Of a stretch of DNA of 64,000 nucleotides, positions 11,057 to 64,000 are shown in pieces. Position numbers and translations under genes: made by a program. Position 1 is the stretch's first letter. The number at the start of each line of letters is the position of its first letter. This DNA is from Thermomonas sp. Its GTDB lineage: Bacteria; Pseudomonadota; Gammaproteobacteria; Xanthomonadales; Xanthomonadaceae. Below the pieces are notes generated by a model that was not told where the DNA came from, searched no databases, and saw nothing but the letters and a program-made list of their open reading frames with translations. The stretch covers positions 1 to 64,000 of the forward strand of contig NZ_JAMLIW010000004.1 in the NCBI RefSeq assembly GCF_023953935.1, given 5' to 3'.

Positions 11057-13684
11057 ATGGCATCGGGCCCATCCAGCCGCGCCTTCGCCGAGTTCAGCGC
11101 GCTGATGGATTTGCCCGTGCGGGAACGGTTGCAGCGCTTGCAGACCCTGCGGCGCGAAGACGCGGCGCTGGCCGATGCGGTCGAAAGACTGCTGGCGGCG
11201 GCTGACGATCAGCCCGGCAGCGACGATTCCGGCGAACGGCTGGCGCGCTGGGCGGCGCATCTGTCCACCGAAGCGGGGGACGCGGATGCACTGGATGTTG
11301 GTCAGATGCTCGGGCCCTGGCGACTGCTGCGGCGGCTGGGCGAAGGCGGCATGGGCACGGTCTGGCTGGGCGAGCGGGAAGGGGATGGCTTCCGCCAGCA
11401 GGCGGCCATCAAGCTGATCACCCACGGGCTGGATTCTTCACTGGCACGCGCGCGCTTCCTGCGCGAACGCGGCATCCTGGCGCAGCTGGAACACCCCAAC
11501 ATCGCCAGCCTGCTCGACGGCGGCGTCAGCGCCGCCGGCCAGCCCTATTTCGCCATGGCCTACGTCGAAGGCGAGCCTATCGATGCCTGGTGCGATGGCC
11601 GGCGGCTGGGCGTGCGGGCCCGCGTGACGCTGTTCCTGCAGGTGCTCGACGCGGTGCAGTACGCGCACCGCAACCTGATCGTCCATCGTGACCTGAAGCC
11701 TTCCAACGTGCTGGTGGACGGCGACGGCCACGTGAAGCTGCTGGACTTTGGCATCGCCAAGCTGCTGGAGCCCGAAACTCGGTCCGATGTCACCCGCGAA
11801 CTGGCCATGACGCCGCAGTTCGCGGCACCGGAGCAGTTGCGCCACCTGCCGGTGACGACCGCCACCGACGTCTATCAGCTTGGCTTGATGCTGCACCTCA
11901 TCCTCACCGGCGACCATCCCTTCGGCGTGCGCGACGCCACCCCGGTGGGCGAATTGCTGCCACTGCTCGAAGCGCCGCCGCACAGCCTCGGGCAGGTGGC
12001 GCGGCAACTGTCCGAGGCCACCCTGGCGCAGCGCCAGAGCGGTCGCAAGGCGTTCGTCCACAGCGTCTCCGGCGACCTTTCCGCCATCGTCGCCACCTGC
12101 CTTGCGGTGGAACCGGAGCAACGCTATCCCAGCGTCGATGCGCTGGCCGGGGACCTGTGGCGCTGGCTGGACGGTCTGCCGGTGGGCGTGCGCGCGTCTT
12201 CGCGCAGCTACCGGCTGCGTTTCTTCGTGCGTCGCCACCGGTGGGCGCTGGCCTCACTGGCGGCGATCATTTGCGCGCTCGCCATCGGGCTGGGGGTCGC
12301 CCTGCAGCAGGCGCGGCAGGCGCGGCTGCAGGCGCAGCGCGCGCAGCAGGTCAAGGATCTGGTGCTGTCGGTGTTCCGCGAGGAGGACCCGTTGGCGCGC
12401 GGCACCGACAGCGCGCGTGCGCCGGCGCAGATTCTTGCCGACGGCATCCGCGGGCTGGACGCGCGACAGGGGGTCGAACCTGCGCTGCGCGCGGAGCTGC
12501 TGGATGATCTGGGCGAAATCCAGAGCAATCTCGGCGATCCCGCCCATGGTGTCATCACCCTGCAGCAGGCGCTCGCCCTGCGCACGCAGCTGTTCGGCCC
12601 CGCCAGCGCTCAGGCTGGACAGACCGAACGCAAGCTGAGCGAAGCCGCCTGGGCCGCCGGCAATCTGGAAACTGCCGAACGGCATGCGCGGCGGGCGCTG
12701 GCCGTCGCGACCGAGCTTGACGGCGGCCATGCGCCCGAAGCCGCCCGCGCACGGCTGGCGCTGGCGCAGGCCACCATCAATGGCCGACAGCGCGAGCAGG
12801 CGCTGCCGATGGCCGAACAAGCCATCGCCGACCTCGCCCTCCGCCTGGGGCGCGGTGCGCCGGAAACCACCGCGGCGATGCAGCAGCGCGCGCTGATGCT
12901 GTTGCAACTGCGGCGCGACGACGAAGCCATCCTCCAGCTCCGACAGATGGTCGCCACCATCGAAGCCGGCGCCGGCGTGCAGTCGCCTCGGCTGTTGCCG
13001 CCGCTGTCGCTGCTGGCAAGCGCGCTGCGCCAGAATCATCGTGCCGATGAAGCCGCCGCCGCATTCGAACGGGCCGAGGCCCTGGCACGCCGCTACTATC
13101 CCGAGCCCAGCGGAACGCTGGCCAACCTGCTGGCCCGCCACGGTGCGCTGATGCTGCAGCAGCGCAAATTGCCGCAGGCCAAGACGCTGTTCGACGCTGC
13201 CGCCCACGCGATGCCGGCGGGCAATGACGATGCGCTGTCCAAACTGCTGTTCGAGCGCGGCAAGCTGCACCTGATGCTGGGCGCGGGCGATGCCGCCGAA
13301 GCCGATCTGCGGCAGGCGTTCGAACTGCAGCGCAAGCTGTCCGGCGATGGCGATGGCAGTACCTGGTACTACGCCAGCGTCTGGGGCCAGGGGCTGGCGA
13401 TGCAAAACCGGTTCGCCGAAGCCGAGCGGATCCAGCGCGATGCGATCACCCGCCTGCACGCCATCCTCGGCCCCGCCGCCTACCAGAATGCGCTGCTGCT
13501 GGATGCCCTGACCGACACCTTGATGCGTGCCGGTCGGCCGGTCGAGGCGCTGGCGACGATGCGCGAATCGCTGGCGCTCACCGCCAGCAAGTATTCGACC
13601 GACCATCCGCTGTATCAGGGCCGGATGAAAGCCCTGCATGAAATCGAGCAGGCTGCCGCCGCGCAGTCCGCAAGCCGCCGCTGA
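11057..13684 (+). CDS. membrane-anchored Ser/Thr protein kinase with C-terminal TPR region 2
   Basis: An 875-residue Hanks-type kinase with the same domain order as its upstream paralogue. Motifs are LGEGGMGTVWLGE, lysine in AAIKLI, HRDLKPSNV, DFGIAKLLEP and MTPQFAAPEQ. The transmembrane helix is at about residues 395-415 (WALASLAAIICALAIGLGVAL), followed by a TPR-like helical sensor half (LGEIQSNLGDPAHG and similar units). Complete catalytic motifs predict an active kinase. Its C-terminal TASKYSTDHPLYQGRMKAL stretch is identical to that of kinase 1. It ends 46 bp before the converging lipoprotein gene, so it is probably the last gene of the run that begins at tamA or at sigma 1. Confidence 0.92.
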   Translation: MASGPSSRAFAEFSALMDLPVRERLQRLQTLRREDAALADAVERLLAAADDQPGSDDSGERLARWAAHLSTEAGDADALDVGQMLGPWRLLRRLGEGGMGTVWLGEREGDGFRQQAAIKLITHGLDSSLARARFLRERGILAQLEHPNIASLLDGGVSAAGQPYFAMAYVEGEPIDAWCDGRRLGVRARVTLFLQVLDAVQYAHRNLIVHRDLKPSNVLVDGDGHVKLLDFGIAKLLEPETRSDVTRELAMTPQFAAPEQLRHLPVTTATDVYQLGLMLHLILTGDHPFGVRDATPVGELLPLLEAPPHSLGQVARQLSEATLAQRQSGRKAFVHSVSGDLSAIVATCLAVEPEQRYPSVDALAGDLWRWLDGLPVGVRASSRSYRLRFFVRRHRWALASLAAIICALAIGLGVALQQARQARLQAQRAQQVKDLVLSVFREEDPLARGTDSARAPAQILADGIRGLDARQGVEPALRAELLDDLGEIQSNLGDPAHGVITLQQALALRTQLFGPASAQAGQTERKLSEAAWAAGNLETAERHARRALAVATELDGGHAPEAARARLALAQATINGRQREQALPMAEQAIADLALRLGRGAPETTAAMQQRALMLLQLRRDDEAILQLRQMVATIEAGAGVQSPRLLPPLSLLASALRQNHRADEAAAAFERAEALARRYYPEPSGTLANLLARHGALMLQQRKLPQAKTLFDAAAHAMPAGNDDALSKLLFERGKLHLMLGAGDAAEADLRQAFELQRKLSGDGDGSTWYYASVWGQGLAMQNRFAEAERIQRDAITRLHAILGPAAYQNALLLDALTDTLMRAGRPVEALATMRESLALTASKYSTDHPLYQGRMKALHEIEQAAAAQSASRR

Positions 13685-18002: not shown

Positions 18003-18204
18003 GGTGTCAGGTTCCTTGGGAAGGGGGATGCAGGCCCCGCTTGTGGGTGGCCTTGTCCCTTCATTCGGAAAAACCCGGCCCAACCCGACACGGCATTGAA
18101 ATCTGCCGTCCCGGTCCGCCGCCGCATTTGCCGGGTGCCGGGCGGGGCCGCACAATTCGCCCGTGGGGAATGCGGGCCGGCCCGGCGCTGCACCTGGAGG
18201 GCGC

Positions 18205-21174
18205 ATGGCATCCGACGAGCATCTGCGGCGTGCGCTGGAGCTGTTTGATGCCGCGCTGGAACAACCCGAGCCGCAGCGCGAGGCGTGGCTGCATGCGCAG
18301 TGCGCGGGCGATGCGGCGCTGCTGGCGCAGGTGCGCGCGCTGCTGGCGGCCGATGCGCACGACAGCGCAGCCGACCTGTGCCTGAACCCGCTGGCTGCCG
18401 TCAGCGCCGAGGCCGCCACCACGGCGCCAGCGGAGGCGCTGCTGGGTGAGCGCATCGGCGCCTGGCGGATCACCGGCGTGCTTGGGCGCGGCGGCATGGG
18501 CGCGGTGTACGCGGTGGAGCGCGCCGACGGCCAGTTTGCCCAGCAGGCCGCGCTCAAGCGGGTGCGCTTCGGGCTGGATTCTCCTGCCGCCCGCGACCGT
18601 TTCCTGCGCGAACGCCAGATCCTCGCCGGATTGCACCACCCCGGCATCGCCCGCCTGCTGGACGGCGGCACCGACGCCCACAACGCGCCGTATTTCGTGA
18701 TGGAACGGGTGGACGGGGAGCCCATCGACCGTTGGTGCGACGCCCGTCGGCTGAGCCTGCGCGCGCGCGTCACGCTGTTTTTGCAGGTGCTCGACGCGGT
18801 GGCTTACGCCCACCGCAACCTGGTGGTGCACCGCGACCTCAAACCGTCCAACCTGCTGGTGGATGCCCAGGGCCGGGCGCGGCTGCTGGATTTCGGCATT
18901 GCGCGGCTTTGCGACGGTGAAACCGGCAGCGCCACCGGCACCCTGGACCGCGTGCTGACCCCGGAATTTGCCGCCCCCGAGCAGATCCTGGGCGATGCCG
19001 TGGGCACGGCCACCGACATCTACCAGCTCGGCCTGCTGCTGTTTCGCCTGCTCACCGGAGCCCATCCGCACGGAATCACCGCCCAGACCACCCTGCGTCG
19101 CCAGTTGGAGCTGCTGGGCGTTGACGCCGGGCGTGCGTCCAGCGCGGTGCTCAAGGCCGATCAGGCCCAGGCGCTGGCACGGCGCGCCTCTCCGGATCAG
19201 CTTGCGCGCCAGCTGCGCGGCGATCTTGACGTCATCCTCGCCAAGGCCATGCAGCGCGAGCCGGAGGCCCGCTACGCCGACGTGGCCAGCCTGCGCGAGG
19301 ATCTTGCCGCCTGGCTGGACGGCCGGCCGGTAGCGGCGCGCGCGCCGAGCTTCCGCTACCGCGCCGGGCGCTTCGTGCGGCGCAATCGTTGGACGGTGGC
19401 CGGCGGCGTCTTCACCCTGTGCGTGATCCTGATCGGCAGCGGCGTATCGCTGTGGCAGGCGCGGCAGGCCAAGCGCGAAGCAGCGCGTGCCGATGCGGTC
19501 AGCGCCTATCTGGCCGGCATTTTCACCAGCATCGACCCCGAGCACGGCTGGAACCGCAACGTGGGCGTGCGCGATTTGCTCGACGACGGCGCGCGCCGGC
19601 TCGATGCCGGGGCATTGGCCGACCAGCCGGCCGCCGAGGCCCGCCTGCGCGGCACCCTGGCGCAGACCTACGCCGCGCTGGGTGACTATGCCGCGGCGCG
19701 GATACAGGTGAACAAGGCGCTGAGCCTGAGCACCCACGACCCGCAGGCCACGGTGCAGCTGCGCATCCAGCAGGCCGAATTGCAGCAGCTTGCCGGCGAA
19801 TACCGCAGCGCCGCGGCCAATTTGGCCGCCCTGGAGGCCGAATTGACCGCGCACGGCACGGCCCACGCCGACGCGCTGGATCTGGTGCACGGCAAGCAGG
19901 CGGATCTGGCCGAGCAGATGGAAGACCTTCCGCGCGCGCTGCGGCTGGGGGAGGCGGTGTACCGATCCGCCCTGACCCGGCACGGGGCTTCCGATGCCCG
20001 CACCCAGGCCTACCAGCAAACCTACGCGCTGCTTCTGGGCAGCGCCGGCAAAACCGGCGCGGCGGTGCAGCTGCAGCGCGCCTTGCTGGCCACCCAGCGC
20101 ACACTGCCGGCGCTGCCCAAGGCCACCCTGGCCACGACCTTGCACAACCTGGCCACCTTGACCAACGACGATGGTCATCCGGCCGAGGCGATCGCGTATG
20201 CCGACGAAGCGCTGCGGCTGCGGCAGGCGGCTCTGCCCGCGCAGCACCCGCTGATTGCCCGCAGCCTGGCCTATCTGGCCTATCTGCAGGGGCAGGCCAA
20301 CCGGCGTGAACCCGCGTTGCGCAATTTCGCCAGTGCGGTGGCGTTGCTGGACACGCCGGCGCATCCGGACGACGAGCTGCTGGCCAATACCCACAACAAC
20401 TGGGCGGTGACCTGCTACCAATTCAGCGACCTGACCTGCGCACGTACCCATCTGGACGCCGCCATCACGCTGTGGAGCCGGCTGCTGCCGGCCGACCACA
20501 GCGACCTGCTCTCCGCGCGCAACAACCTGGCCGCCGTGTTGAATGAAACCGGCGCGCTGGCCGAAGCCGAAGGGCAGATCCGCCAGATCATCGCGGCGCG
20601 GCGGGCCAAGCACAGCCGCGCCCTGGACGATGCGCTGGGGCTGGCGGCCGGTTACAACATGCTGACCGTCAACCTGTCCAGCCAGAATCGTCCGCTGCAA
20701 GCGCTGGAAGCCGCCCAACAGGCGCTGGCCAGTCTGCAAGACGCCGGTGTCAGCGATCAGGCCGCGCTGGGTTCGGCCTGGAACAGCATCGCGTTTGCCG
20801 AATGGCGCATGGGCCGCTGCGTGGACAGCCTCGAACATGCGCGCCGGGCCATCGAGATGTTTGAACAGGCCGGCGCCCACGACCGGCTGCCGTCGGCACA
20901 GCTGAACCTGGCGCGCTGCCTCGTGCGCGACTCGGCCACCGCGCGGGCGGGCATTGCGCAGGCCGAAGCGGTGCGCAAGGCGGTGCCCGCCGGCTCGAAC
21001 ACCGGGCAGCAGGCACGCGCCGCGCAGGCCGAAGGCTGGCTGGTCCTGGGCCAGCGCAAGAATGCCAATGCCCTGGCCGATGCATTGATTGCCGAGCTCA
21101 TCGCCAGCGGCAAACCGCAGTCGCGCACCATCGTGCGAATGCAGGCAGTGCGCTCGGGTCGGCTGGCGCAGTAG
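18205..21174 (+). CDS. membrane-anchored Ser/Thr protein kinase with C-terminal TPR region 3
   Basis: A 989-residue Hanks-type kinase. Motifs are LGRGGMGAVYAVE, lysine in AALKRV, HRDLKPSNL, DFGIARL and the activation-segment end LTPEFAAPEQ. A transmembrane helix lies at about residues 395-417, followed by about 570 residues of TPR-type helices, some longer than in the other two kinases. The ATG at 18205 has a GGAGG site 4-8 bp upstream and the same MASD/MASG beginning as kinases 1 and 2. Its natural partner is probably sigma 3 at 15279, but the adhesin gene on the other strand lies between them. The region upstream of 18205 is shared with the adhesin start, so the two promoters are divergent within about 200 bp. 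Confidence 0.92.
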   Translation: MASDEHLRRALELFDAALEQPEPQREAWLHAQCAGDAALLAQVRALLAADAHDSAADLCLNPLAAVSAEAATTAPAEALLGERIGAWRITGVLGRGGMGAVYAVERADGQFAQQAALKRVRFGLDSPAARDRFLRERQILAGLHHPGIARLLDGGTDAHNAPYFVMERVDGEPIDRWCDARRLSLRARVTLFLQVLDAVAYAHRNLVVHRDLKPSNLLVDAQGRARLLDFGIARLCDGETGSATGTLDRVLTPEFAAPEQILGDAVGTATDIYQLGLLLFRLLTGAHPHGITAQTTLRRQLELLGVDAGRASSAVLKADQAQALARRASPDQLARQLRGDLDVILAKAMQREPEARYADVASLREDLAAWLDGRPVAARAPSFRYRAGRFVRRNRWTVAGGVFTLCVILIGSGVSLWQARQAKREAARADAVSAYLAGIFTSIDPEHGWNRNVGVRDLLDDGARRLDAGALADQPAAEARLRGTLAQTYAALGDYAAARIQVNKALSLSTHDPQATVQLRIQQAELQQLAGEYRSAAANLAALEAELTAHGTAHADALDLVHGKQADLAEQMEDLPRALRLGEAVYRSALTRHGASDARTQAYQQTYALLLGSAGKTGAAVQLQRALLATQRTLPALPKATLATTLHNLATLTNDDGHPAEAIAYADEALRLRQAALPAQHPLIARSLAYLAYLQGQANRREPALRNFASAVALLDTPAHPDDELLANTHNNWAVTCYQFSDLTCARTHLDAAITLWSRLLPADHSDLLSARNNLAAVLNETGALAEAEGQIRQIIAARRAKHSRALDDALGLAAGYNMLTVNLSSQNRPLQALEAAQQALASLQDAGVSDQAALGSAWNSIAFAEWRMGRCVDSLEHARRAIEMFEQAGAHDRLPSAQLNLARCLVRDSATARAGIAQAEAVRKAVPAGSNTGQQARAAQAEGWLVLGQRKNANALADALIAELIASGKPQSRTIVRMQAVRSGRLAQ

Positions 21175-42840: not shown

Positions 42841-42850
42841 GGAGGATTTG

Positions 42851-43735
42851 ATGGGTCCTGGAAGCATGGCGGCGGTGGCCTTGATCGCGACCAGCCTGCC
42901 GCTGGCGCTGGCGCTGGGCGTGGTGTGGTGGCAGCTGCGCCAGGGGCGGCTGTTGAATGCGCAGGATGAAGCCGACGACGTGGCGGCCAAACTGCCGGCC
43001 GAACGCCAGCGCCGGCGGATCGAGACGCGCAGCGACAAGATCCAGTGGCTGACCGTGCAGATGCTGATCGCGGGCATGCTGGCCTGGATCGCGGTGGTGG
43101 CCTCGCAAATTCCCTGGGACGAACTGCGCCTGACCTGGATCGACGGCGCCGTGCTGCTGGTGGCGGCAGGCTGGGTGGTGATGACCCTGCGCCAGCTGTC
43201 GGTGCTGTGGGAAGAACGCCGCGGCGGTGGCGATGGCGTGCGTGCCGAGGTCGCCGTGGCGCGCCGGCTGGACGGGCTGCAGGCGCTGGGCTGCCAGGTG
43301 TTCCACGAGGTGCCGGTGCGGGATTTCGACATCGACCACGTGCTGATCGGCGCATCGGCCGTGTTCGCGATCGAAACCAAGGCGCGCCGCCGCGGCAATG
43401 GCCTGTCCGCCGAAGTGCGCTATGACGGCCAGACCCTGCACTTCCCGCACTGGGCCGAAACCCGGCCGCTGGAACAATCCCGGATGCAGGCACAGTGGCT
43501 GGCCGAGTACCTGCGCGAACAATTGGGGCAACCGATCCCGGTGGTGCCCGTGCTCTGCCTGCCCGGCTGGACCGTGCTGGACGAACCGGGCGCCGAACAG
43601 GCTGAAACCCGGGTCATCGACCCGAACGCCGAACCGCGATTCCTCGCCGCCGACCGTCATGCCGCTTTCGACCCGGCGCTGCGAACCCGGGTCATCGAGA
43701 CGATCCACGGCCTCTACCGAAAGCTCGCCACCTGA
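42851..43735 (+). CDS. membrane-anchored NERD-domain protein (copy 1)
   Basis: A 294-residue protein with an N-terminal helix, a second hydrophobic pair at about 55-115 (IDGAVLLVAAGWVVMTLRQL) and a C-terminal NERD (nuclease-related) domain. Nuclease-like landmarks are DIDHVLIGASAVFAIETKAR (Asp and E-x-K of a restriction-endonuclease-like core) and RPLEQSRMQAQWLAEYL. NERD domains are predicted nucleases, but activity is rarely shown. The ATG at 42851 has AGGAGG five bases upstream. A clear paralogue is encoded at 60516-61391 in the accessory region. Confidence 0.82.
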   Translation: MGPGSMAAVALIATSLPLALALGVVWWQLRQGRLLNAQDEADDVAAKLPAERQRRRIETRSDKIQWLTVQMLIAGMLAWIAVVASQIPWDELRLTWIDGAVLLVAAGWVVMTLRQLSVLWEERRGGGDGVRAEVAVARRLDGLQALGCQVFHEVPVRDFDIDHVLIGASAVFAIETKARRRGNGLSAEVRYDGQTLHFPHWAETRPLEQSRMQAQWLAEYLREQLGQPIPVVPVLCLPGWTVLDEPGAEQAETRVIDPNAEPRFLAADRHAAFDPALRTRVIETIHGLYRKLAT

Positions 43736-43896
43736 GGCTCAGCGCGGCCCCCGCAGCCGTGGGGCTTTCGAGGGTGACTTTGCCGGCGGTCGGGGGTACT
43801 GTTCGCTGGCGGGCGGGAATGCGGCGGTTGGCCACGGTAACCTGCGTTTCCCGGAGGTTGAGGCGAGGGTTGAAACGGGGTGTTCCGGGGGGAACC

Positions 43897-44118
43897 ATGT
43901 CGAAACTGTTGATGCTGATGCGCAAGCTCGGAAGCGATGCGGCGCTGGCCGAGGAATATCGGCGCGACCCGGACGGGGTGATGCGGCATGCCGGGCTGTC
44001 GGACGAAGAGCGTCGCGCCATGCTGGACAAGGACATCGAAGCGATCAAGCGGCTCACCGGGCTGGCGGAGGGAAAATTTGCCGTCATCCAATCCACCATC
44101 ACCGCCTACGGCGACTGA
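43897..44118 (+). CDS. split-borosin precursor peptide (LigA-like binding domain plus C-terminal core)
   Basis: A 73-residue peptide. Its segment LGSDAALAEEYRRDPDGVM and the following RHAGLSDEERRAML have the LigA-like helical pattern of the borosin-binding domain of split borosin precursors. From memory it closely resembles Shewanella SonA (LGQDAQLMEDYKQNPEAVM and so on). The C-terminus after LTGLAEG reads KFAVIQSTITAYGD, a short beta-branched, hydrophobic tail like known methylated cores. In split borosins a separate methyltransferase N-methylates backbone amides in this core, and such a domain lies 1.8 kb downstream. The ATG at 43897 is preceded by a GGGGGAA site. No LigB dioxygenase partner is present, which argues against the LigA enzyme reading. 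Confidence 0.78.
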   Translation: MSKLLMLMRKLGSDAALAEEYRRDPDGVMRHAGLSDEERRAMLDKDIEAIKRLTGLAEGKFAVIQSTITAYGD

Positions 44119-44134
44119 ACCTGCTGCCCCCTGA

Positions 44135-45370
44135 ATGTGCGGGCTGCGTCTCGCTTCGCTGATTCGAAACGCATTGCTGGCACTGCTCATGGCCGGTGCG
44201 CCAGCGATGGCTGCGGGCGATCCGGAGGCCAAAGTCAGGGAAATCGAACGCCTCGCGATTACCGCGCCCGTCGCGGAATCGAATGCCAAGATAGCGGAGC
44301 TTGCGCCGGACATGGGCACATTGACGCCAGGGCAGCGCCAGCGCGTCGAATATGTGCGGCTGCGCAATCTGGCCATCGTCGGTGATCAGGCTTCCGCATT
44401 GACCGGATTGCAGGCATTGCTGCAACAGCAGCTGCCGGCCCCCTTGCGGGTGCGGATTTACGCAACCGCGACGTCCATTGCCGCCAACATCGGGCAATGG
44501 AAACTGGCCTATCAATGGTTGAACGACAGCCTGCCCTATCTGCCGACGGCGGGTGACGATGCGCCGCGGATGCTGATGACCGCGAGCTACCTGAACGGTT
44601 TGGTTGGCGAAGATGCCTTGTCGCGCGAATTCGCCACCAAAGCGCTGCATCTGGCCGAGCAAGGGCGCGATGCGTTGAGCTTGTGTCGAGCTGTCGCCGG
44701 CATGGCGCAGATCGAGGAACATGCGCAGGATTACGCCGCGGCCGGACGTTGGCGCATGCGCCAAATCGAAGATTGTGGCCTTGCCGGGGCTGGGGACAAC
44801 CTGTTTGTCGGCGGCGCTGAAGCCGGAATGGGCAAGGTTGAAATGGAGCGTGACAACCCGAGTGCGGCCCTGGGTTGGTACCGCAGCGCGCTGGCACGAT
44901 TCCAGCGTGCAGGTTACGAAACGGGTATCCAGGATGCCGGAATCGGACTGGCCTCCAGCCAGATCGCACTGGGCGAGGATCTGGATCAGGCCCGCACCCT
45001 GCTGCAAAACAGCGCGGTGTATTTCCGCGAACAACAGGCGTCGCTGGCAGTCGAGGAGGCCGAACGCCAGCTGGCCGCGCTGGCCGAACGCGAAGGCGAT
45101 GCCAGTCTGGCGCTGGTGCATTACAAGAATGCGATGGCGGCCGCGGTCGAGACCCAAGAAAACGGCGCGGGACCGCCTGATCGCCTACCAGCAGGTGCAG
45201 TTCTCTACCCGTCTGAAGCAGCAGCAGATCGACCTGCTGCAGGCCCAGCAGGTGATCGCCCAGCTGCAGATCACGCGCAAAGCGGCGGCAGTGGCTGCTG
45301 GTCGCGGGCGGCGCTTTGCTGTTGCTGTTGGTGGCGCTGCTGGTGGTCCTGCTGCGCGCTCCGCGCGTGA
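44135..45370 (+). CDS. TPR sensor half of a diguanylate cyclase, frameshifted before its membrane helix
   Basis: The frame starts 16 bp after the precursor gene with a signal peptide (NALLALLMAGAPAMAAGD), then periplasmic TPR-like helices (about residues 30-345). After about 45165 it becomes low-complexity nonsense ending at 45370. The expected continuation appears in other frames: the coiled coil RLIAYQQVQFSTRLKQQQID in frame 0 (from about 45171), the helix QWLLVAGGALLLLLVALLVV in frame 1 (from about 45284), and YRWQSEHDGLTRLL of the GGDEF entry in frame 0 (from about 45380). Three single-base changes (one G near 45166-45170, one A at 45281-45283, a missing C near 45371) would join them. The intact protein would be periplasmic TPR-TM-coiled coil-GGDEF. 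Confidence 0.7.
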   Translation: MCGLRLASLIRNALLALLMAGAPAMAAGDPEAKVREIERLAITAPVAESNAKIAELAPDMGTLTPGQRQRVEYVRLRNLAIVGDQASALTGLQALLQQQLPAPLRVRIYATATSIAANIGQWKLAYQWLNDSLPYLPTAGDDAPRMLMTASYLNGLVGEDALSREFATKALHLAEQGRDALSLCRAVAGMAQIEEHAQDYAAAGRWRMRQIEDCGLAGAGDNLFVGGAEAGMGKVEMERDNPSAALGWYRSALARFQRAGYETGIQDAGIGLASSQIALGEDLDQARTLLQNSAVYFREQQASLAVEEAERQLAALAEREGDASLALVHYKNAMAAAVETQENGAGPPDRLPAGAVLYPSEAAADRPAAGPAGDRPAADHAQSGGSGCWSRAALCCCCWWRCWWSCCALRA

Positions 45371-46709
45371 CCGCCAGCGCTACCGCTGGCAGTCGGAACA
45401 TGACGGCCTGACCCGCCTGCTCAGCCAGAAGCAGATTCGCAAACTCGGTCAGGCGGCGTGGGAGCAGGCGCGTCGACAGGATCGGCCGATCAGCGTGGTG
45501 GTGCTGGATGTCGATTACTTCAAGCAGGTCAACGACCGTTACGGCCATGCCGCCGGCGACGAGGCGCTGCGCAAGCTGGGTGGATGGATCGAGCAGGCGG
45601 TGGGGTCGGAGGATTTGGCCGGTCGCAGCGGTGGCGACGAATTCACCCTGCTGATTGCGGGAGACGCGGACCGCGCGGCGGCCGTGGTCCGGGAGATTCG
45701 GGATGCGATCGAACCGATCGCGGTGTTCGATGACAGGATCGGGATCAGCATCAGCGCCGGCATTTGCGCGGACAGCGCCGCGTTCGACAGTCTGGGTGCG
45801 CTGGTCCATGCCGCCGATGGCGCCTTGCGGCGGGCAAAGCAGGAAGGCCGCAACCGCGTGGTGCTTGCAGGCGCGGATGCGCGCGCTGCGCCCGACGCGG
45901 GTGGTGCTGCTGTTGACCCGCATGCGGATCGCCTCGTCGTGGTCGGCTGCGGCATCCAGATGGGTCGCCACATGAGCCCGCGCTGCGAATCCGAAATCCG
46001 GTTGGCCGACGTGGTGATGTGTCTGGTCGATCCGTTCGCGCTGGCGATGATCCGCGCGCTGCGCCCGGATGCGGTGAATCTCGGCGAGCACTATGCCGAT
46101 GGCAAGGATCGGCGCGACAGCTACCGCGAGATCGACGCCGCCATCATGGCGCAGGTGCGGGCCGGCAAGCGCGTGTGCGCGGTGTTCTACGGCCACCCCG
46201 GCGTGTTTGCGGACGTGCCGCACCGGGTGGTGCGGCGGGCGCGTGAAGAAGGCTTCAGCGCCCGCATGGAGCCGGGAGTTTCCGCCGAAGCCTGCCTGTA
46301 CGCCGACCTCGGCATTGATCCGGGTCGTCACGGCGTGCAGTCGCTGGAGGCCACCCAGTTCCTGCTGCAGGATCGCGTGCTGGATCCGGCCGGCCTCGTG
46401 CTGCTGTGGCAGGTCGCGCTGGCCGGGGATCTGACCTGCACCCGGCGCCAGGCCGATCGTGCCCAGTTGCAACGGCTGGTGGACAAGCTGCGGCGCTGGT
46501 ATCCGGCCGACCACGAGGTGATTCTTTACGAAGCGGCGCGGCTGCCGATCGAAACGTCGCGGATCGATCGCCTGCGCCTGCTCGACTTGCCGGAGGCGCA
46601 GTATCAGGAATTCACCACGCTGGTGATTCCGCCGCTGGCCGCGGTGCGTGAGCCGGCAGACCGTCTGGCCGTGGCTCCACTGGCGGACGCGAACCCCGCG
46701 ACAGGCTGA
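45171..46709 (+). CDS. GGDEF domain in frame with a borosin-type alpha-N-methyltransferase
   Basis: This frame carries an intact diguanylate cyclase domain (SVVVLDVDYFKQVNDRYGH; active site GRSGGDEFTLL; ending RRAKQEGRNRVVL near 45875). After a ~18-residue linker an OphMA/SonM-like tetrapyrrole-methylase-family domain begins at 45927 (DRLVVVGCGIQ). Methyltransferase landmarks are HYADGKDRRDSYREID (Tyr/Arg/Tyr like the OphMA catalytic set), CAVFYGHPGVFADVPHR, RMEPGVSAEACLYADLGIDP and LVLLWQVALAGDL. It should use SAM to N-methylate peptide-backbone amides of the precursor at 43897. No start codon separates the domains, so as written they are fused. A missed indel near 45880-45920 could hide a stop and start. 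The N-terminal part is broken by frameshifts upstream. Confidence 0.8.
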   Translation, partial: DRLIAYQQVQFSTRLKQQQIDLLQAQQVIAQLQITRKAAAVAAGRGRRFAVAVGGAAGGPAARSARDRQRYRWQSEHDGLTRLLSQKQIRKLGQAAWEQARRQDRPISVVVLDVDYFKQVNDRYGHAAGDEALRKLGGWIEQAVGSEDLAGRSGGDEFTLLIAGDADRAAAVVREIRDAIEPIAVFDDRIGISISAGICADSAAFDSLGALVHAADGALRRAKQEGRNRVVLAGADARAAPDAGGAAVDPHADRLVVVGCGIQMGRHMSPRCESEIRLADVVMCLVDPFALAMIRALRPDAVNLGEHYADGKDRRDSYREIDAAIMAQVRAGKRVCAVFYGHPGVFADVPHRVVRRAREEGFSARMEPGVSAEACLYADLGIDPGRHGVQSLEATQFLLQDRVLDPAGLVLLWQVALAGDLTCTRRQADRAQLQRLVDKLRRWYPADHEVILYEAARLPIETSRIDRLRLLDLPEAQYQEFTTLVIPPLAAVREPADRLAVAPLADANPATG

Positions 46710-46721
46710 AACGCCGCCGGC

Positions 46722-47750
46722 TCAGGGCGTGATGACGATGCGGCCGTGGCCGCGGAAGCCGGCCAGCGCATCGAGACGGGCGTTGATGGCATCGGCGTCG
46801 AGCGGAATGGTTTCGGTGACCACCGATTTCAGATCAAGCTGGCCGCGGCGGGTGAATTCCATCAGGGTCACCAGCTCGCTGCGCAGGTGGTCGGAGACGC
46901 CGATCACTTCGGCCTCACGGCAGATCAAATCGCCGAAGCTGTCGATCTCGAAGGCGGCGTGGGTGATCCCGGCGATCGCGGCGCGGCCTTGCACCGCCAA
47001 CGCCGCCACCGCCTGGCGCTGGGTGAGCGGCAGGCCGGCGAATTCCAGCGCCACTTCCACGCCATCCCCGCCGGTGGCCTCGCGCAGCTGCCGCACCGGC
47101 GCGCCATCGGCCGGATCGACCGGAATTGCGCCGTAGCCGTGCGCGGCGGCAAGCTTGCCGGCGTCGATGTCGATGCCGAACACCTGCGCCGCGCCGCAGG
47201 CGTGGGCGAGCTGGATGGCCGACAGCCCGAGGCCGCCGCAGCCGAACACCGCGACCCGATCGCCGGGCGCGATGCGCGCCTTGCGCAGGGCGTGGAAGGC
47301 GGTGGCACTGGAACACATCATGATGGCCGCCTCGGGGGCGCTGATGCCGTCGGCTATCGGGATGGCGTTGCGTGCTGGCGCCAGCGCGTACTGCGCATAG
47401 CCGCCGTCGCGGTGCTTGCCGAGCATCTGCCCGTGTTTGCAGAACTGTTCCAGCCCGCGCGCGCAGGCGTCGCAGCGGCCGCAGGTGACAAGATAGTGCA
47501 GGGCGACGCGGTCACCGATGGCCAGCTCCGTCACGCCTTCGCCGAGGGCGTCGACGCGGCCGGCGATTTCGTGGCCGGGCGTGATCGGCAGCCGTGCGAC
47601 GCTGGCGACGCCGTCGCGGTAGTGGAGGTCGGAATGGCAGATGCCGGCCGCCTCGACCCGCACCCGGATTTCACCCGGGCCGGGTTCGCGCAGCGCGGTC
47701 TGGCGCAGTTGCAAAGGCTTGCCGAGTTCGACGATCTGCACGCTGCGCAT
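46722..47750 (-). CDS. zinc-dependent alcohol dehydrogenase
   Basis: A 342-residue medium-chain dehydrogenase/reductase. It has the catalytic-zinc Cys in AAGICHSDLHYRDG, GHEIAGRV, the four-cysteine structural-zinc loop CGRCDACARGLEQFC and the Rossmann motif VFGCGGLGLSAIQLA. It oxidises alcohols or reduces aldehydes with NAD(H) or NADP(H); the substrate is unknown. The ATG at 47750 matches the family start. It converges with the borosin-type methyltransferase frame (12 bp gap) and lies 23 bp downstream of purD in the same direction. Confidence 0.9.
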   Translation of the reverse strand: MRSVQIVELGKPLQLRQTALREPGPGEIRVRVEAAGICHSDLHYRDGVASVARLPITPGHEIAGRVDALGEGVTELAIGDRVALHYLVTCGRCDACARGLEQFCKHGQMLGKHRDGGYAQYALAPARNAIPIADGISAPEAAIMMCSSATAFHALRKARIAPGDRVAVFGCGGLGLSAIQLAHACGAAQVFGIDIDAGKLAAAHGYGAIPVDPADGAPVRQLREATGGDGVEVALEFAGLPLTQRQAVAALAVQGRAAIAGITHAAFEIDSFGDLICREAEVIGVSDHLRSELVTLMEFTRRGQLDLKSVVTETIPLDADAINARLDALAGFRGHGRIVITP

Positions 47751-60515: not shown

Positions 60516-61391
60516 CTACTCATCCAGCTCCGGATAGCGTTTGTACAGCGCATGCACGATGCGATTGCGTTGCGCGTCGTGGAATGGCGCTCTGCCGCCG
60601 GCGTCGAGGAATGGCTGCTTGAACTTCGGGTTGATCACGCGCACATCGCTGCGTGCTGCGTCCCGATCAGCACTGACGAACCAGCCCGGAAGGCACAACA
60701 CGGGCAAAACCGGAACGGGTTCGCCGGTTTCGCCGCGCAGGTAATCGGACAGCCAGCGGGCTTGGTGACGCGCCTGATCCAGCGGCCTGGTCTCGTTCCA
60801 GCCGGGGAAATGCAGGGCACTGCCGTCAAAGCTGACCTGTGCGGACGCCTTGCCGGTCCCGGGCTTGCGGCGGGATTTGGTCTCCACGGCAAACACCGAG
60901 GTCCGCCCGATCACCACGTGGTCGATGTTGAAGCGCTCCGCCGGCAAGTCGTGCAGTACCAGGCAGCCTTCAGCCTGCAAACGATCCAACAGCTGTGCCG
61001 TCGCGATTTCGGCGCGCATGCCATCGTGGCATGCCCGCCGTTCGCGCCAGCGCGGAACCAGCTTGCAGATCGTCATGACGGTGAATGCCAACGCGGCAGC
61101 CACGACGCCACCGTCCAGCCAGGTGAATGACAGCCGGCTCCACGCCACGCGCGGCAGCACCACCACCAGGGTGGCCAACGGCCCAACCACGACGAGCAAG
61201 ATCAAGTACTCGTCGATTTTCTCCGACATCACGTCCATGCGGCGACGCAGCTGCTCGCCAGGAAGGTACGCCAATTTTTCGGTCAGCGGCGAGCGTCGAC
61301 CTTCCCGCTTTTGTTGCCTGCTCAGCCAGAACACCACGGCTGCGGCACCCAAAGGGGGCAGCAGGATCGCCAACATTGCGATGAAGGGCAT
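60516..61391 (-). CDS. membrane-anchored NERD-domain protein (copy 2)
   Basis: A 291-residue paralogue of the protein at 42851. It has two hydrophobic regions (MLAILLPPLGAAAVVFWL; LVVVGPLATLVVVLP) and a C-terminal NERD nuclease-like domain (NIDHVVIGRTSVFAVETKSR, RPLDQARHQARWLSDYL, PVLCLPGWFV). The predicted active-site Asp and E-x-K are intact. The ATG at 61391 shares one base with the stop of the DNA methyltransferase (TGATG), so the methyltransferase and NERD protein are one operon. Confidence 0.85.
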   Translation of the reverse strand: MPFIAMLAILLPPLGAAAVVFWLSRQQKREGRRSPLTEKLAYLPGEQLRRRMDVMSEKIDEYLILLVVVGPLATLVVVLPRVAWSRLSFTWLDGGVVAAALAFTVMTICKLVPRWRERRACHDGMRAEIATAQLLDRLQAEGCLVLHDLPAERFNIDHVVIGRTSVFAVETKSRRKPGTGKASAQVSFDGSALHFPGWNETRPLDQARHQARWLSDYLRGETGEPVPVLPVLCLPGWFVSADRDAARSDVRVINPKFKQPFLDAGGRAPFHDAQRNRIVHALYKRYPELDE

Positions 61392-64000
61392 CACCTTGCT
61401 GCTCCGGTTTTCTTACGGGCTTTCTTTTCCTTCGCCACCGGCAGCAGGCTGGTGATGGCTTGATAGCGCTGGAACAAGAAGGCCACGCGCTCGGCGTCGG
61501 TGGTGAGTTTGGGGGGTTTACGGCCGGCGGTTTTTTCGGCGGCGAGGTAGGCAGCGTCCACCGCCTTGTCGAGCGCTGCGTGGGCTTTCACCAGCGCCGG
61601 CGGCATGGTCAGCGGGTCGTAGAGGTCGGCGAGGGTTGCATCGGGGAATTGGGCGCGGGCGTCGAGGACGGCTTGGGCGGCGGCTTCAATCGCGGCGCGG
61701 TGCTTGTTCCCCTCTCCCCCCGGGAGAGGGGCTGGGGGTGAGGGCGGCTCATGCAGGGCATTCCAAATCCCCTCCAGAACCCCCTCCAGATTCTCCAATG
61801 CCTCGTTGTTCCACACGCGCAGCGTGCGGATGCCACGCGCATGCAAAAAGGCATCGCGTCGCGCATCGTGAGCAGCAGCGTCCTCATGCTGGCTGCCGTC
61901 CAGTTCGATGCACAGCTTGGCGGCATCGCAATAGAAATCCAGCGTGTACGGTGGCAGCGGATGCTGGCGGCGGAACTTGAAGCCTCCCAATCGGCGATCA
62001 CGCAGCAATTGCCACAGACCTTGTTCGGCATCGGTGCCATGCTGGCGCAGGCTGCGCGCGAAGTCGGTGGCTTCCTTGGGTGGGTAGGGTTTGTGCGTGT
62101 TCAAGGCGCCCTCACCCCAACCCCTCTCCCGGGGGGAGAGGGGCTCACGTGCGCTGCCTGCTTGTCCTTCCCCCTCCATGCGATGGCAACACGTTTTGCC
62201 TGCTTGTCCTTCCCCCTCCGGGGGAAGGTGGCGCGCAGCGCCGGATGAGGGCGCTTTGGGCTTGTCGTCAACAGCGCCCTCACCCCAACCCCTCTCCCGA
62301 GGGGAGAGGGGCTCAAGCGCTGGCCAGGGGAAGTTGTTGTAGACGATGTTTACCGAATACTGATAGTCACTTTTTAGGCGGCCACTTGTGTATCGCGTCC
62401 ATGCCATGTGCATGGTGGAGGTGAGGATACCGAAGTCGTACAACGTGGCATGCGGAAAGATTCGCAATTTATTGCTTGCTAACGTTTCCGGGGACATGAA
62501 GCCAATCGGAATGAAATGGCGCCGCTCGGATGACACTTCCGGAATCACCAGATAATTGTCGTCCGGAATGTTCTCCACATGAAACCGCGTCGGCGTCGCC
62601 GCCAGCTTCCGCGTGGGCGCGCTCTTGCTGGTCAGCCGCAGCTGCCGCACCGCTTCCACGCGCTTCAAGCATTCCGGCATCGCCCGCAATTCCGACGGCG
62701 GGCAATCGCCCAGCCACAGGCACCAGCGTTCCCAGCCATTGATGAACTCATCCGCGCCGAGCCAGCGCCGGAACCACTTTGCCGAAGCAGGCTCCTTCGC
62801 AATGAAGGCATCGCGCTCGTCGGTGGTGAACAGGTAGTGGCCGCCGTCGATCGGCTTGTTGCCGATTCCGATTTCCGGAACCTCGCAAATCGGCGTATTG
62901 CGACTGGGCAGCAGCACATCCGCCGCGTCCACCAGATACGGGTTGATGTTCGCAACCGCCAGTTCGTGCGACTGCCCGCGAATGTCCTGATAGTCGAACA
63001 GGCGCTTGGGCGTGAGGTCGCCGCGGGCAAAGCCCACGATCACGCAATGCACCGCCGCCACGCCGCGCGCTTCGTTGTTCCATTGAAAGGTGCGGTGGGC
63101 GAAGAAGATGCGCATGCCCGCGTTCAACATCGCGCCCCACAGCACGCCCACCTGCTCGCCCTGGGTGATGGAGTTGGTGGAGACGAAGGCGCAGCGAATG
63201 GCCTTTCCTTCCCCCTCCGGGGGAAGGTGGCGCGCAGCGCCGGATGAGGGCGCTTTGGGCTTGTCGTCAACGGCGCCCTCACCCCAACCCCTCTCCCGGA
63301 GGGAGAGGGGCTTGAGATAGGCGGCTGCCTTCAGATACCAAGCGCATACAAAATCCAGCACGCCTGCGCCTTTCAGTGGGCCGGCAATTGCCAACAAATC
63401 GTCGCGCTGCTGCGCGTTCATCATCTTCGACCCCACGAACGGCGGATTCCCCAGAATGAAATCCAGCTCCGCCGCCGGCACCACGTCGTTCCAGTCGATC
63501 CGCAGGGCATTGCCATAGACAATCGTGGCGGATTTCTTCAGCGGCAGGCGCAGCACGTTTTCGCCGAACTGCTCGGCCACGCGCAGGTTCATCTGGTGGT
63601 CCATCAGCCACAGCGCCACCTGCGCGATCTGCGCGGGGAATTCCTCGATCTCGATGCCGTAGAACTGGTCCACGTCCACCAGCACGTGGTCTTGCACATG
63701 CGCCAGCACCGATTGCTGACGAGCGAACTGGCGCTCAAGCACCTGCAATTCCAGCAGGCGGATTTCGCGATAGGCAATCACCAGAAAATTGCCGCAGCCG
63801 CAGGCCGGGTCGAGGAACTTCAGGGTGGCCAGTTTGCGATGCAGCTGCGCCAGCTTTTTCTCGTCGTGGCCTGCCTTGTCCAGCTCGGCCTTGAGGCCGT
63901 CGAGGAACAGCGGGCCGATGAGCTTGAGGATGTTCTTCTCGCTGGTGTAGTGCGCGCCGAGATTGCGGCGGGCCTTGGCATCCATCACCGACTGGAACAT
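61391..64000 (-). CDS. MmeI-like DNA methyltransferase (partial) with in-frame repeats and an inserted DUF559 domain
   Basis: An 869-residue C-terminal portion; the frame is open at the window edge. The AHYTSEKNILKLIGPLFLDG entry, SAM motif FLDPACGCGNFLVIAYRE (near residue 63) and catalytic DFILGNPPFVGSKMM (near 185) identify an adenine-specific class I methyltransferase of the MmeI/type IIG-like family. The family C-terminus (AQAVLDARAQFPDATLADLY to VAFLFQRYQ) is present. Insertions interrupt it: a repeat peptide at about 229-264, more repeats at 560-631, a complete DUF559 nuclease-like domain at about 635-750 (LGGFKFRRQHPLPPYTLDFY, KLCIELDGSQH, LRVWNNE), and a further repeat to about 763. 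All keep the frame. Whether the protein works is unknown. Confidence 0.85.
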   Translation of the reverse strand: MFQSVMDAKARRNLGAHYTSEKNILKLIGPLFLDGLKAELDKAGHDEKKLAQLHRKLATLKFLDPACGCGNFLVIAYREIRLLELQVLERQFARQQSVLAHVQDHVLVDVDQFYGIEIEEFPAQIAQVALWLMDHQMNLRVAEQFGENVLRLPLKKSATIVYGNALRIDWNDVVPAAELDFILGNPPFVGSKMMNAQQRDDLLAIAGPLKGAGVLDFVCAWYLKAAAYLKPLSLRERGWGEGAVDDKPKAPSSGAARHLPPEGEGKAIRCAFVSTNSITQGEQVGVLWGAMLNAGMRIFFAHRTFQWNNEARGVAAVHCVIVGFARGDLTPKRLFDYQDIRGQSHELAVANINPYLVDAADVLLPSRNTPICEVPEIGIGNKPIDGGHYLFTTDERDAFIAKEPASAKWFRRWLGADEFINGWERWCLWLGDCPPSELRAMPECLKRVEAVRQLRLTSKSAPTRKLAATPTRFHVENIPDDNYLVIPEVSSERRHFIPIGFMSPETLASNKLRIFPHATLYDFGILTSTMHMAWTRYTSGRLKSDYQYSVNIVYNNFPWPALEPLSPRERGWGEGAVDDKPKAPSSGAARHLPPEGEGQAGKTCCHRMEGEGQAGSAREPLSPRERGWGEGALNTHKPYPPKEATDFARSLRQHGTDAEQGLWQLLRDRRLGGFKFRRQHPLPPYTLDFYCDAAKLCIELDGSQHEDAAAHDARRDAFLHARGIRTLRVWNNEALENLEGVLEGIWNALHEPPSPPAPLPGGEGNKHRAAIEAAAQAVLDARAQFPDATLADLYDPLTMPPALVKAHAALDKAVDAAYLAAEKTAGRKPPKLTTDAERVAFLFQRYQAITSLLPVAKEKKARKKTGAAR
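62208..62313. repeat. G/C-rich palindromic repeat, copy A, inside the methyltransferase gene
   Basis: An about 106-bp element nearly identical to 63207-63312. It consists of two hairpins (TTCCCCCTCC/GGGGGAAGG type and CCCCTCTCCC/GGGAGAGGGG type) flanking a variable middle. A related partial copy lies at about 62105-62145 and another at about 61710-61740. It is translated in frame as GAVDDKPKAPSSGAARHLPP plus flanks. Confidence 0.85.
63207..63312. repeat. G/C-rich palindromic repeat, copy B, inside the methyltransferase gene
   Basis: Nearly identical to the copy at 62208-62313 and read in the same protein frame. It interrupts the methyltransferase between AWYLKAAAYLK and IRCAFVSTNSITQG, which should be contiguous in the family. 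The identity of the two copies points to recent insertion or gene conversion. Confidence 0.85.

Follow-up and report, generated by a model that had tools for sequence, protein, structure and literature searches.

A SonM-like split-borosin pair and its predicted coupling to a TPR sensor in Thermomonas sp. and related bacteria

The 64,000-nucleotide stretch analyzed here (Thermomonas sp., contig NZ_JAMLIW010000004.1, positions 1 to 64,000; hereafter the window) carries at 43897-46709 what an earlier interpretation of the letters alone (the sequence-only reading) had called a split-borosin locus, i.e., a precursor peptide and a separate backbone N-methyltransferase. We find it very probable, judging by homology, that the locus has borosin chemistry, with a SonA-like precursor, a SonM-family enzyme, and a predicted methylation of the precursor tail. 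The precursor and the enzyme had thus been correctly recognized, but it had been missed that the enzyme forms the C-terminal part of a sensor fusion that combines tetratricopeptide repeats (TPR) with a GGDEF domain. Likewise, the two genes are indeed 1.8 kb apart, but the gap, which had been left unread, encodes this TPR-GGDEF sensor, in the window with disrupted frames.

The borosin methyltransferase and its precursor

The methyltransferase domain is at 45927-46709 (plus strand, as are the precursor and the sensor parts described below). Among PDB sequences (phmmer), its best match is SonM (1.3e-71), followed by fungal borosin enzymes (OphMA family, 1.3e-41), whereas the nearest non-borosin match, a precorrin-2 C20-methyltransferase, reaches only 1.5e-3; the Pfam family TP_methylase (PF00590) is matched at 5e-20. 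The motifs that had drawn attention to the enzyme, YGHPGVF, RMEPGVSAEACLYADLGIDP, and HYADGKDRRDSYREID, were all recovered inside this interval. Nine of the 11 SonM residues checked are identical in the window enzyme, the exceptions being E173 (D in the window) and Q178 (R). The four residues that were mutated in SonM, Y58, R67, Y71, and Y93 (PMC8429565; papers given by PMC number are cited from partial text), have their equivalents at codons 46092, 46110, 46122, and 46188, and together with F99 and W166 they are invariant across all 100 borosin rows, the window among them.

A phylogeny had been named beforehand as a check, and it was run in part, with the window genome's two remaining PF00590 proteins as the outgroup and without a precorrin enzyme from elsewhere. 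In this tree of 103 rows, the window enzyme falls among the borosin enzymes, SonM included, and the outgroup pair stands apart on very long branches. Within this scope, no grouping with precorrin, CysG, or RsmI enzymes was seen, and the PDB ranking agrees. The assignment to the SonM family of backbone N-methyltransferases therefore stood, on the SonM match, the tree placement, and the retention of all four mutated residues. Compared with its two nearest relatives, the enzyme has a dN/dS of 0.18-0.20.

The 73-residue open reading frame (ORF) with the tail KFAVIQSTITAYGD is present as described at 43897-44118, and its homology and predicted fold suggest a SonA-like borosin precursor, consisting of a borosin-binding domain (BBD) and a short tail. 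SonA is its match among PDB sequences (phmmer, 2.6e-9), and Pfam LigA is matched at 4.1e-5 with 24.1 bits, just below the cut-off of 25.3. The AlphaFold2 model (mean pLDDT 78, 48-row alignment) has five helices, with a further helix predicted at low confidence in the tail. In a Foldseek comparison with the PDB, SonA chains take the first 28 places, ahead of DesB, LigAB, and fungal borosin chains; the five best SonA matches have an rmsd of 0.6-1.2 with Foldseek E-values of 0.03-0.08, none below 0.001. Both the sequence match and the fold match thus bear out the call of a split-borosin precursor, and a separate precursor with a five-helix BBD, the mark of a split borosin, is what the model predicts for the window. 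The dN/dS of the precursor relative to the two nearest relatives is 0.14-0.24.

The predicted core comprises residues 59-73 (GKFAVIQSTITAYGD, 44071-44115), as placed by the tail alignment of relatives and by analogy with L63 and I65 of SonA (PMC8429565). The core proposed by the sequence-only reading is plausible, in that a tail ending in AY or AF with acidic residues is common to 25 of 32 precursors of the fused group (defined below). However, the window tail departs from the group at another point: where 22 of the 32 read (A/S)TNH, FAxIQ-like residues stand in the window and in its two closest relatives.

Compared with known systems, the window shares with SonM/SonA, a type IV split borosin of Shewanella oneidensis (PMC8429565), the enzyme family, the mutated active-site residues, and a separate BBD precursor of matching fold. 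However, SonM is encoded by a separate gene before its precursor, whereas the window enzyme comes after the precursor, as the C-terminal domain of a sensor, and the tail sequences differ. OphMA, the fused fungal enzyme, belongs to the same methyltransferase family, but there the enzyme and the core form one self-methylating chain, whereas they are separate in the window.

Coupling to a sensor gene among relatives

Gene order in relatives makes it highly probable that the coupling of the borosin pair to a sensor is conserved. The best 80 of at least 568 matches were kept, giving 79 loci, and 20 further loci were added. GGDEF and the enzyme share one open frame in 32 of the 79 loci (33 with the window counted; the fused group). 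In the remainder, a GGDEF gene lies just before the enzyme (16 loci), after it (27), or is absent within 3.3 kb (4), three of these last four (L065, L080, and L095) lying at contig ends. In any order, a same-strand GGDEF was found within 3.3 kb in 75/79 and 17/20, that is, in 92/99 loci, and on the opposite strand in 3/99. Apart from the window, 32 loci are fused; in 31 of them one uninterrupted frame of 816-1142 residues carries the fusion, and in L078 the frame is cut by the contig end. The fused group (33 rows including the window), with genera such as Luteimonas, Thermomonas, Pseudoxanthomonas, and Rubrivivax, forms one cluster of the tree, which also takes in two contig-end rows.

Of the 107 nearby GGDEF ORFs on the same strand, that of the window included, 85 have a detected BBD peptide upstream in the expected place, 80 of them at E <=1e-3 and five with weaker scores; the median distance between the peptide and the GGDEF domain is 1.6 kb. 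The enzyme may stand on either side, and the precursor, where found, precedes the sensor. At four loci (L101, L102, L107, and L115), about 16 kb of DNA holds a single methyltransferase together with two precursor-sensor pairs, and L060 has two complete fusion modules. Separately, at L195:5770-6293 two different borosin precursors are arranged in tandem ahead of one TPR-GGDEF gene.

The three BBD matches without a GGDEF behind them all precede TPR-histidine kinases. Two are at L085 (Natronospiraceae), a locus without GGDEF in which each of two precursors is followed by a TPR-HisKA-HATPase-receiver protein, and the third is at L141, where a TPR-HisKA-HATPase-receiver-Hpt protein follows the precursor. 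L212 has both sensor types, with a TPR histidine kinase behind the precursor and a TPR-GGDEF gene behind the enzyme. Because these three loci (L085:3174-10517, L141:7871-11128, and L212:7477-10446) carry TPR-histidine kinases, it appears that the TPR sensor is constant while the output changes.

The arrangement extends to a Shewanella-like genus, a set of 40 genomes given this label because one of its enzymes is 99% identical to SonM. The enzyme is present in 34 of the 40 genomes (49 matches), and in the 20 loci taken from these matches, a GGDEF ORF stands beside the enzyme in all 20 and a precursor was detected in 19. At L191, whose enzyme shares 99% identity with SonM across 241 residues, a TPR-GGDEF ORF lies directly 3' of the precursor. 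The words GGDEF and diguanylate are absent from the main text of PMC8429565. A domain containing the GGDEF sequence is listed among the borosin architectures in the Figure 1 legend of PMC11395268, as at the window locus, and the borosin-GGDEF architecture is therefore already in print. This was the only paper to bring together borosin and GGDEF in the literature searched, a scope outside which the main borosin papers lie.

The enzyme is uncommon in evenly drawn samples, being found in 10/299 genomes of the phylum at 1e-25 and in 9/369 genomes at the class level at 1e-20, with the window genome counted in both. Across 99 genomes, its own included, the window TPR was matched at 1e-8 in 15, of which 14 have the enzyme (Fisher p 1.4e-5, with relatedness ignored); in the window genome its sole match is itself. 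A TPR-sensor match of 2e-15 at G097:C23:101290-102144, in a genome without a borosin enzyme match, is possibly a relic.

Both hydrophobic segments flanking the TPR were found in 88/105 sensors, with one missing in 17/105. Because it lies between two hydrophobic segments, the TPR domain is probably periplasmic. The TPR model of a relative (pLDDT 95.6) has the peptide-pheromone receptors Rap and NprR among its structural matches; this likeness was rejected as proof of peptide binding, since the fold is a common one.

We further compared the divergence of precursors with that of sensor parts, using 78 pairs with a precursor E <=1e-3. The TPR alignment started from 105 TPR-length same-strand GGDEF ORFs, of which 61 passed a length filter and 53 remained after eight were dropped by hand; the window is in neither the test nor the alignment. 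With GGDEF and enzyme distance removed, precursor distance follows TPR distance with a partial r of 0.66 (0/300 permutations), as against -0.07 for GGDEF and 0.16 for the enzyme (0/300). The precursor-TPR value is 0.30 within the fused group (5/300) and 0.57 within the rest (0/300), where that for GGDEF is 0.20 (0/300). When ranks are used and the precursor is split, the BBD carries most of the TPR covariation (0.43). Part of the precursor-TPR covariation may come from rate differences and shared ancestry. It supports, at the level of sequence divergence, a predicted precursor-sensor unit rather than binding of the tail as such.

The apparently interrupted sensor of the window

In the window, the sensor begins with an ORF at 44135-45370, which encodes an N-terminal hydrophobic, signal-like segment and the TPR ectodomain (TPR homology at 44156-45157); the segment scores 1.56, just below the threshold of 1.6 applied to relatives. 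This ORF ends out of frame with the rest of the sensor. A membrane-helix-like stretch (RRQWLLVAGGALLLLLVALLVVLLRAPR, 45283-45366) is readable in the third frame only. It is followed at 45396-45857 by the GGDEF domain, which is in frame with the methyltransferase; the GGDEF and DxDxFKxxN motifs are both present, and we predict a diguanylate cyclase. The open frame 44679-46706 holds GGDEF and the methyltransferase, with no stop codon ahead of the enzyme. The signal segment, TPR, and membrane helix are thus not in one frame in the window, as they are in relatives. No promoter-like site was found in 43600-46800.

Because its parts lie in three frames within ~200 bp, the window sensor reads as broken, either by decay or by sequencing error, and unless the latter applies, it is probably not made whole. 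One may therefore ask whether the locus is a decaying remnant in this genome, in which the sensor has already been lost and the precursor-methyltransferase pair may follow. The contrast with the uninterrupted frames of at least 816 residues in 31/32 other fused loci favors such a remnant, as does the divergence of the GGDEF domain, which has a dN/dS of 0.31-0.34 and an identity of 0.60 relative to two near relatives, compared with 0.14 and 0.86 between those two. These per-segment values (for the window TPR, 0.24-0.29 relative to the two nearest relatives) hint at looser constraint on the window GGDEF, but the fused-group comparison does not agree: relative to the enzyme, the window GGDEF is no outlier across the group (mean residual -0.03, sd 0.07). 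Moreover, the precursor and the methyltransferase have the low dN/dS given above and keep their key residues, and a sequencing error is an alternative source of the frame breaks. We therefore regard a decaying remnant as unlikely, at roughly one chance in four.

A possible role of the methylated peptide

Taken together, we hypothesize that the split-borosin locus forms part of a transmembrane signalling module and that the TPR receptor is the target of the methylated peptide, although for the chain as a whole we put the chances at even. Strong homology suggests that the BBD of the precursor would dock on the SonM-like domain and that the enzyme would N-methylate backbone amides of the C-terminal tail. 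By comparison with intact relatives, the enzyme would be fused to or placed beside a sensor with a TPR domain and a cytoplasmic GGDEF or, more rarely, a histidine-kinase output. The methylated peptide, whether cut and exported or acting otherwise on the receptor, might then be the input of the TPR sensor, a step that we rate slightly below even. As output, the sensor might tune cyclic di-GMP (c-di-GMP) via GGDEF or feed a phosphorelay. In the window genome this module would be interrupted, its TPR and membrane parts being out of frame with GGDEF and the methyltransferase.

More tentatively, in the SonM-like clade, which spans Gammaproteobacteria and some Betaproteobacteria, split borosins might be peptide-receptor signals and not free natural products. 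With the same reserve, taken jointly, each BBD precursor might be paired with its own periplasmic TPR receptor, backbone N-methylation might mature the peptide, and the output might be exchangeable. RRNPP receptors such as Rap and NprR are cytoplasmic proteins of Firmicutes that respond to unmodified peptides. By contrast, the sensor here is membrane-anchored and has a GGDEF or kinase output, and membership in RRNPP is not claimed. A precedent for a TPR domain restraining a GGDEF domain is RcbB of Vibrio vulnificus (PMC12282931); in RcbA/RcbB, similarly, a TPR domain represses a GGDEF domain and a partner relieves the repression. However, RcbA is itself a TPR protein, and the available part of PMC12282931 mentions no methyltransferase or precursor.

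According to the available part of PMC8429565, no type IV split-borosin pathway had been tied to a final natural product as of 2021, and in the literature searched, with the scope given above, no statement of a receptor role for borosin peptides was found. The arrangement of the locus hints that bacterial borosin peptides may act as signals. If so, ribosomal backbone N-methylation would have a signalling role, a Gram-negative counterpart of the Rap-Phr systems would exist, and two fields would be joined, those of ribosomally synthesized and post-translationally modified peptides and of c-di-GMP signalling. Nearly all SonM-like relatives examined have a sensor gene alongside, also in Shewanella, a genus amenable to laboratory work, and this offers a concrete and cheap test of the role of the peptide.

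Several results weigh against a peptide-receptor module, beginning with the three frames of the window sensor itself. Concerning the enzyme, one outgroup protein, L155, has R, F, and W at three of the six SonM residues, and the second could not be aligned at these six positions. Concerning the coupling, the 79 loci are skewed to close kin because they are the best kept of a larger number of matches. A BBD peptide went undetected for 22 of the 107 near GGDEF ORFs (two of them, at L067 and L078, at contig starts), and a TPR match at 1e-8 is absent in 28 of 42 enzyme-bearing genomes. At L138 the sole GGDEF ORF is 3.7 kb distant, and there is no GGDEF near L142 and the distant homologues L213-L217, whose other ORFs were not searched for kinases. 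Because of L138, L142, and L213-L217, we state the sensor coupling for the SonM-like clade and not for all enzymes of the fold. Concerning the receptor, in 41/105 sensors a stretch between the signal and the membrane helix also scores >=1.2 or is unscorable; because of these extra stretches and the missing segment in 17/105, the topology is not established for every sensor. TPR folds are common, and eukaryotic TPR structures rank at least equal to Rap and NprR. Concerning the ligand, the rank-based tail distance is related to TPR (0.36) but also to the enzyme (0.27) and GGDEF (0.22), and within the fused group the tail does not follow TPR (0.08, 65/200 permutations). Since the tail signal is not TPR-specific, co-variation of core and TPR was not accepted as proving that the ligand is bound. 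Finally, that no protease or exporter is adjacent, as the sequence-only reading had remarked, was not contradicted: among the 33 fused loci, window included, no exporter, protease, or other shared neighbor is widely common (best 7/33), and a PF00026 search had no match in the window genome, although its control also matched nowhere.

Alternatively, the peptide may be an ordinary exported borosin, e.g., an antibiotic or a metal binder, whose making or use is controlled by the GGDEF sensor without the peptide being its ligand. Gene adjacency alone suits regulation as well as reception, the tail varies too (that of the window clade is unlike most of the fused group), and an aspartic protease upstream of the enzyme at the Shewanella-like locus L203, with likenesses by eye at L204-L206, is what peptide maturation would lead one to expect. 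However, the neighbor counts just given offer no widely common exporter, and the tail is alike across many fused-group genera, unlike the product of an arms race. The fusion of enzyme and sensor is hard to explain by regulation alone, as is the second precursor-sensor pair beside a single methyltransferase at four loci. An exported product of this kind is therefore improbable in our view, at little more than one chance in five.

To the same low degree, the precursor might be an uncut cytoplasmic BBD protein, whose methylation-dependent binding to a methyltransferase dimer gates a GGDEF dimer. GGDEF domains work only in pairs (PMC7825114) and SonM is a homodimer (PMC8429565), and the one open frame for enzyme and GGDEF in 33 loci would suit such gating, as would the scarcity of proteases and exporters and the observation that sensor divergence is followed by the BBD more than by the tail. 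By contrast, the part that co-varies with the precursor is TPR and not GGDEF, the two hydrophobic segments (88/105) put TPR outside the cytoplasm, and the sensors at L085 and L141 are histidine kinases encoded separately, with no GGDEF. As for the enzyme being a tetrapyrrole, RsmI-type, or similar methylase and no borosin enzyme at all, the PF00590 fold is common to both, but the gap between the SonM and best precorrin matches, the tree placement, and the paired SonA-like precursor leave this a negligible probability.

Possible maturation genes and other neighbors

Shewasin A reportedly acts on a borosin precursor, in work by Lee from 2024. In our set, an aspartic protease (PF00026, L203:7918-9789) lies upstream of a second-type Shewanella-like borosin enzyme, with a GNAT acetyltransferase (PF13302) between the two. 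DTGSST residues were seen at L204, L205, and L206, in proteins similar by eye to the L203 protease. At L142:4843-8373, a locus from another class, there is a 1177-residue open frame in which PF00590 is matched only near the N-terminus (73-214), and which is perhaps a different fused borosin type.

In the window, the gene just upstream of the precursor (42848-43735) encodes a protein with a NERD (nuclease-related) domain by Pfam, and an ORF at 60516-61394 resembles it by eye. It is followed by a long ORF at 61391-64000 that is DNA methyltransferase-like by eye and has repeated GC-rich elements (62106-62320 and 63196-63319) inside its frame. Three further ORFs, at 7781-10447, 11057-13684, and 18163-21174, resemble serine/threonine protein kinases by eye, and their C-terminal parts look TPR-like.

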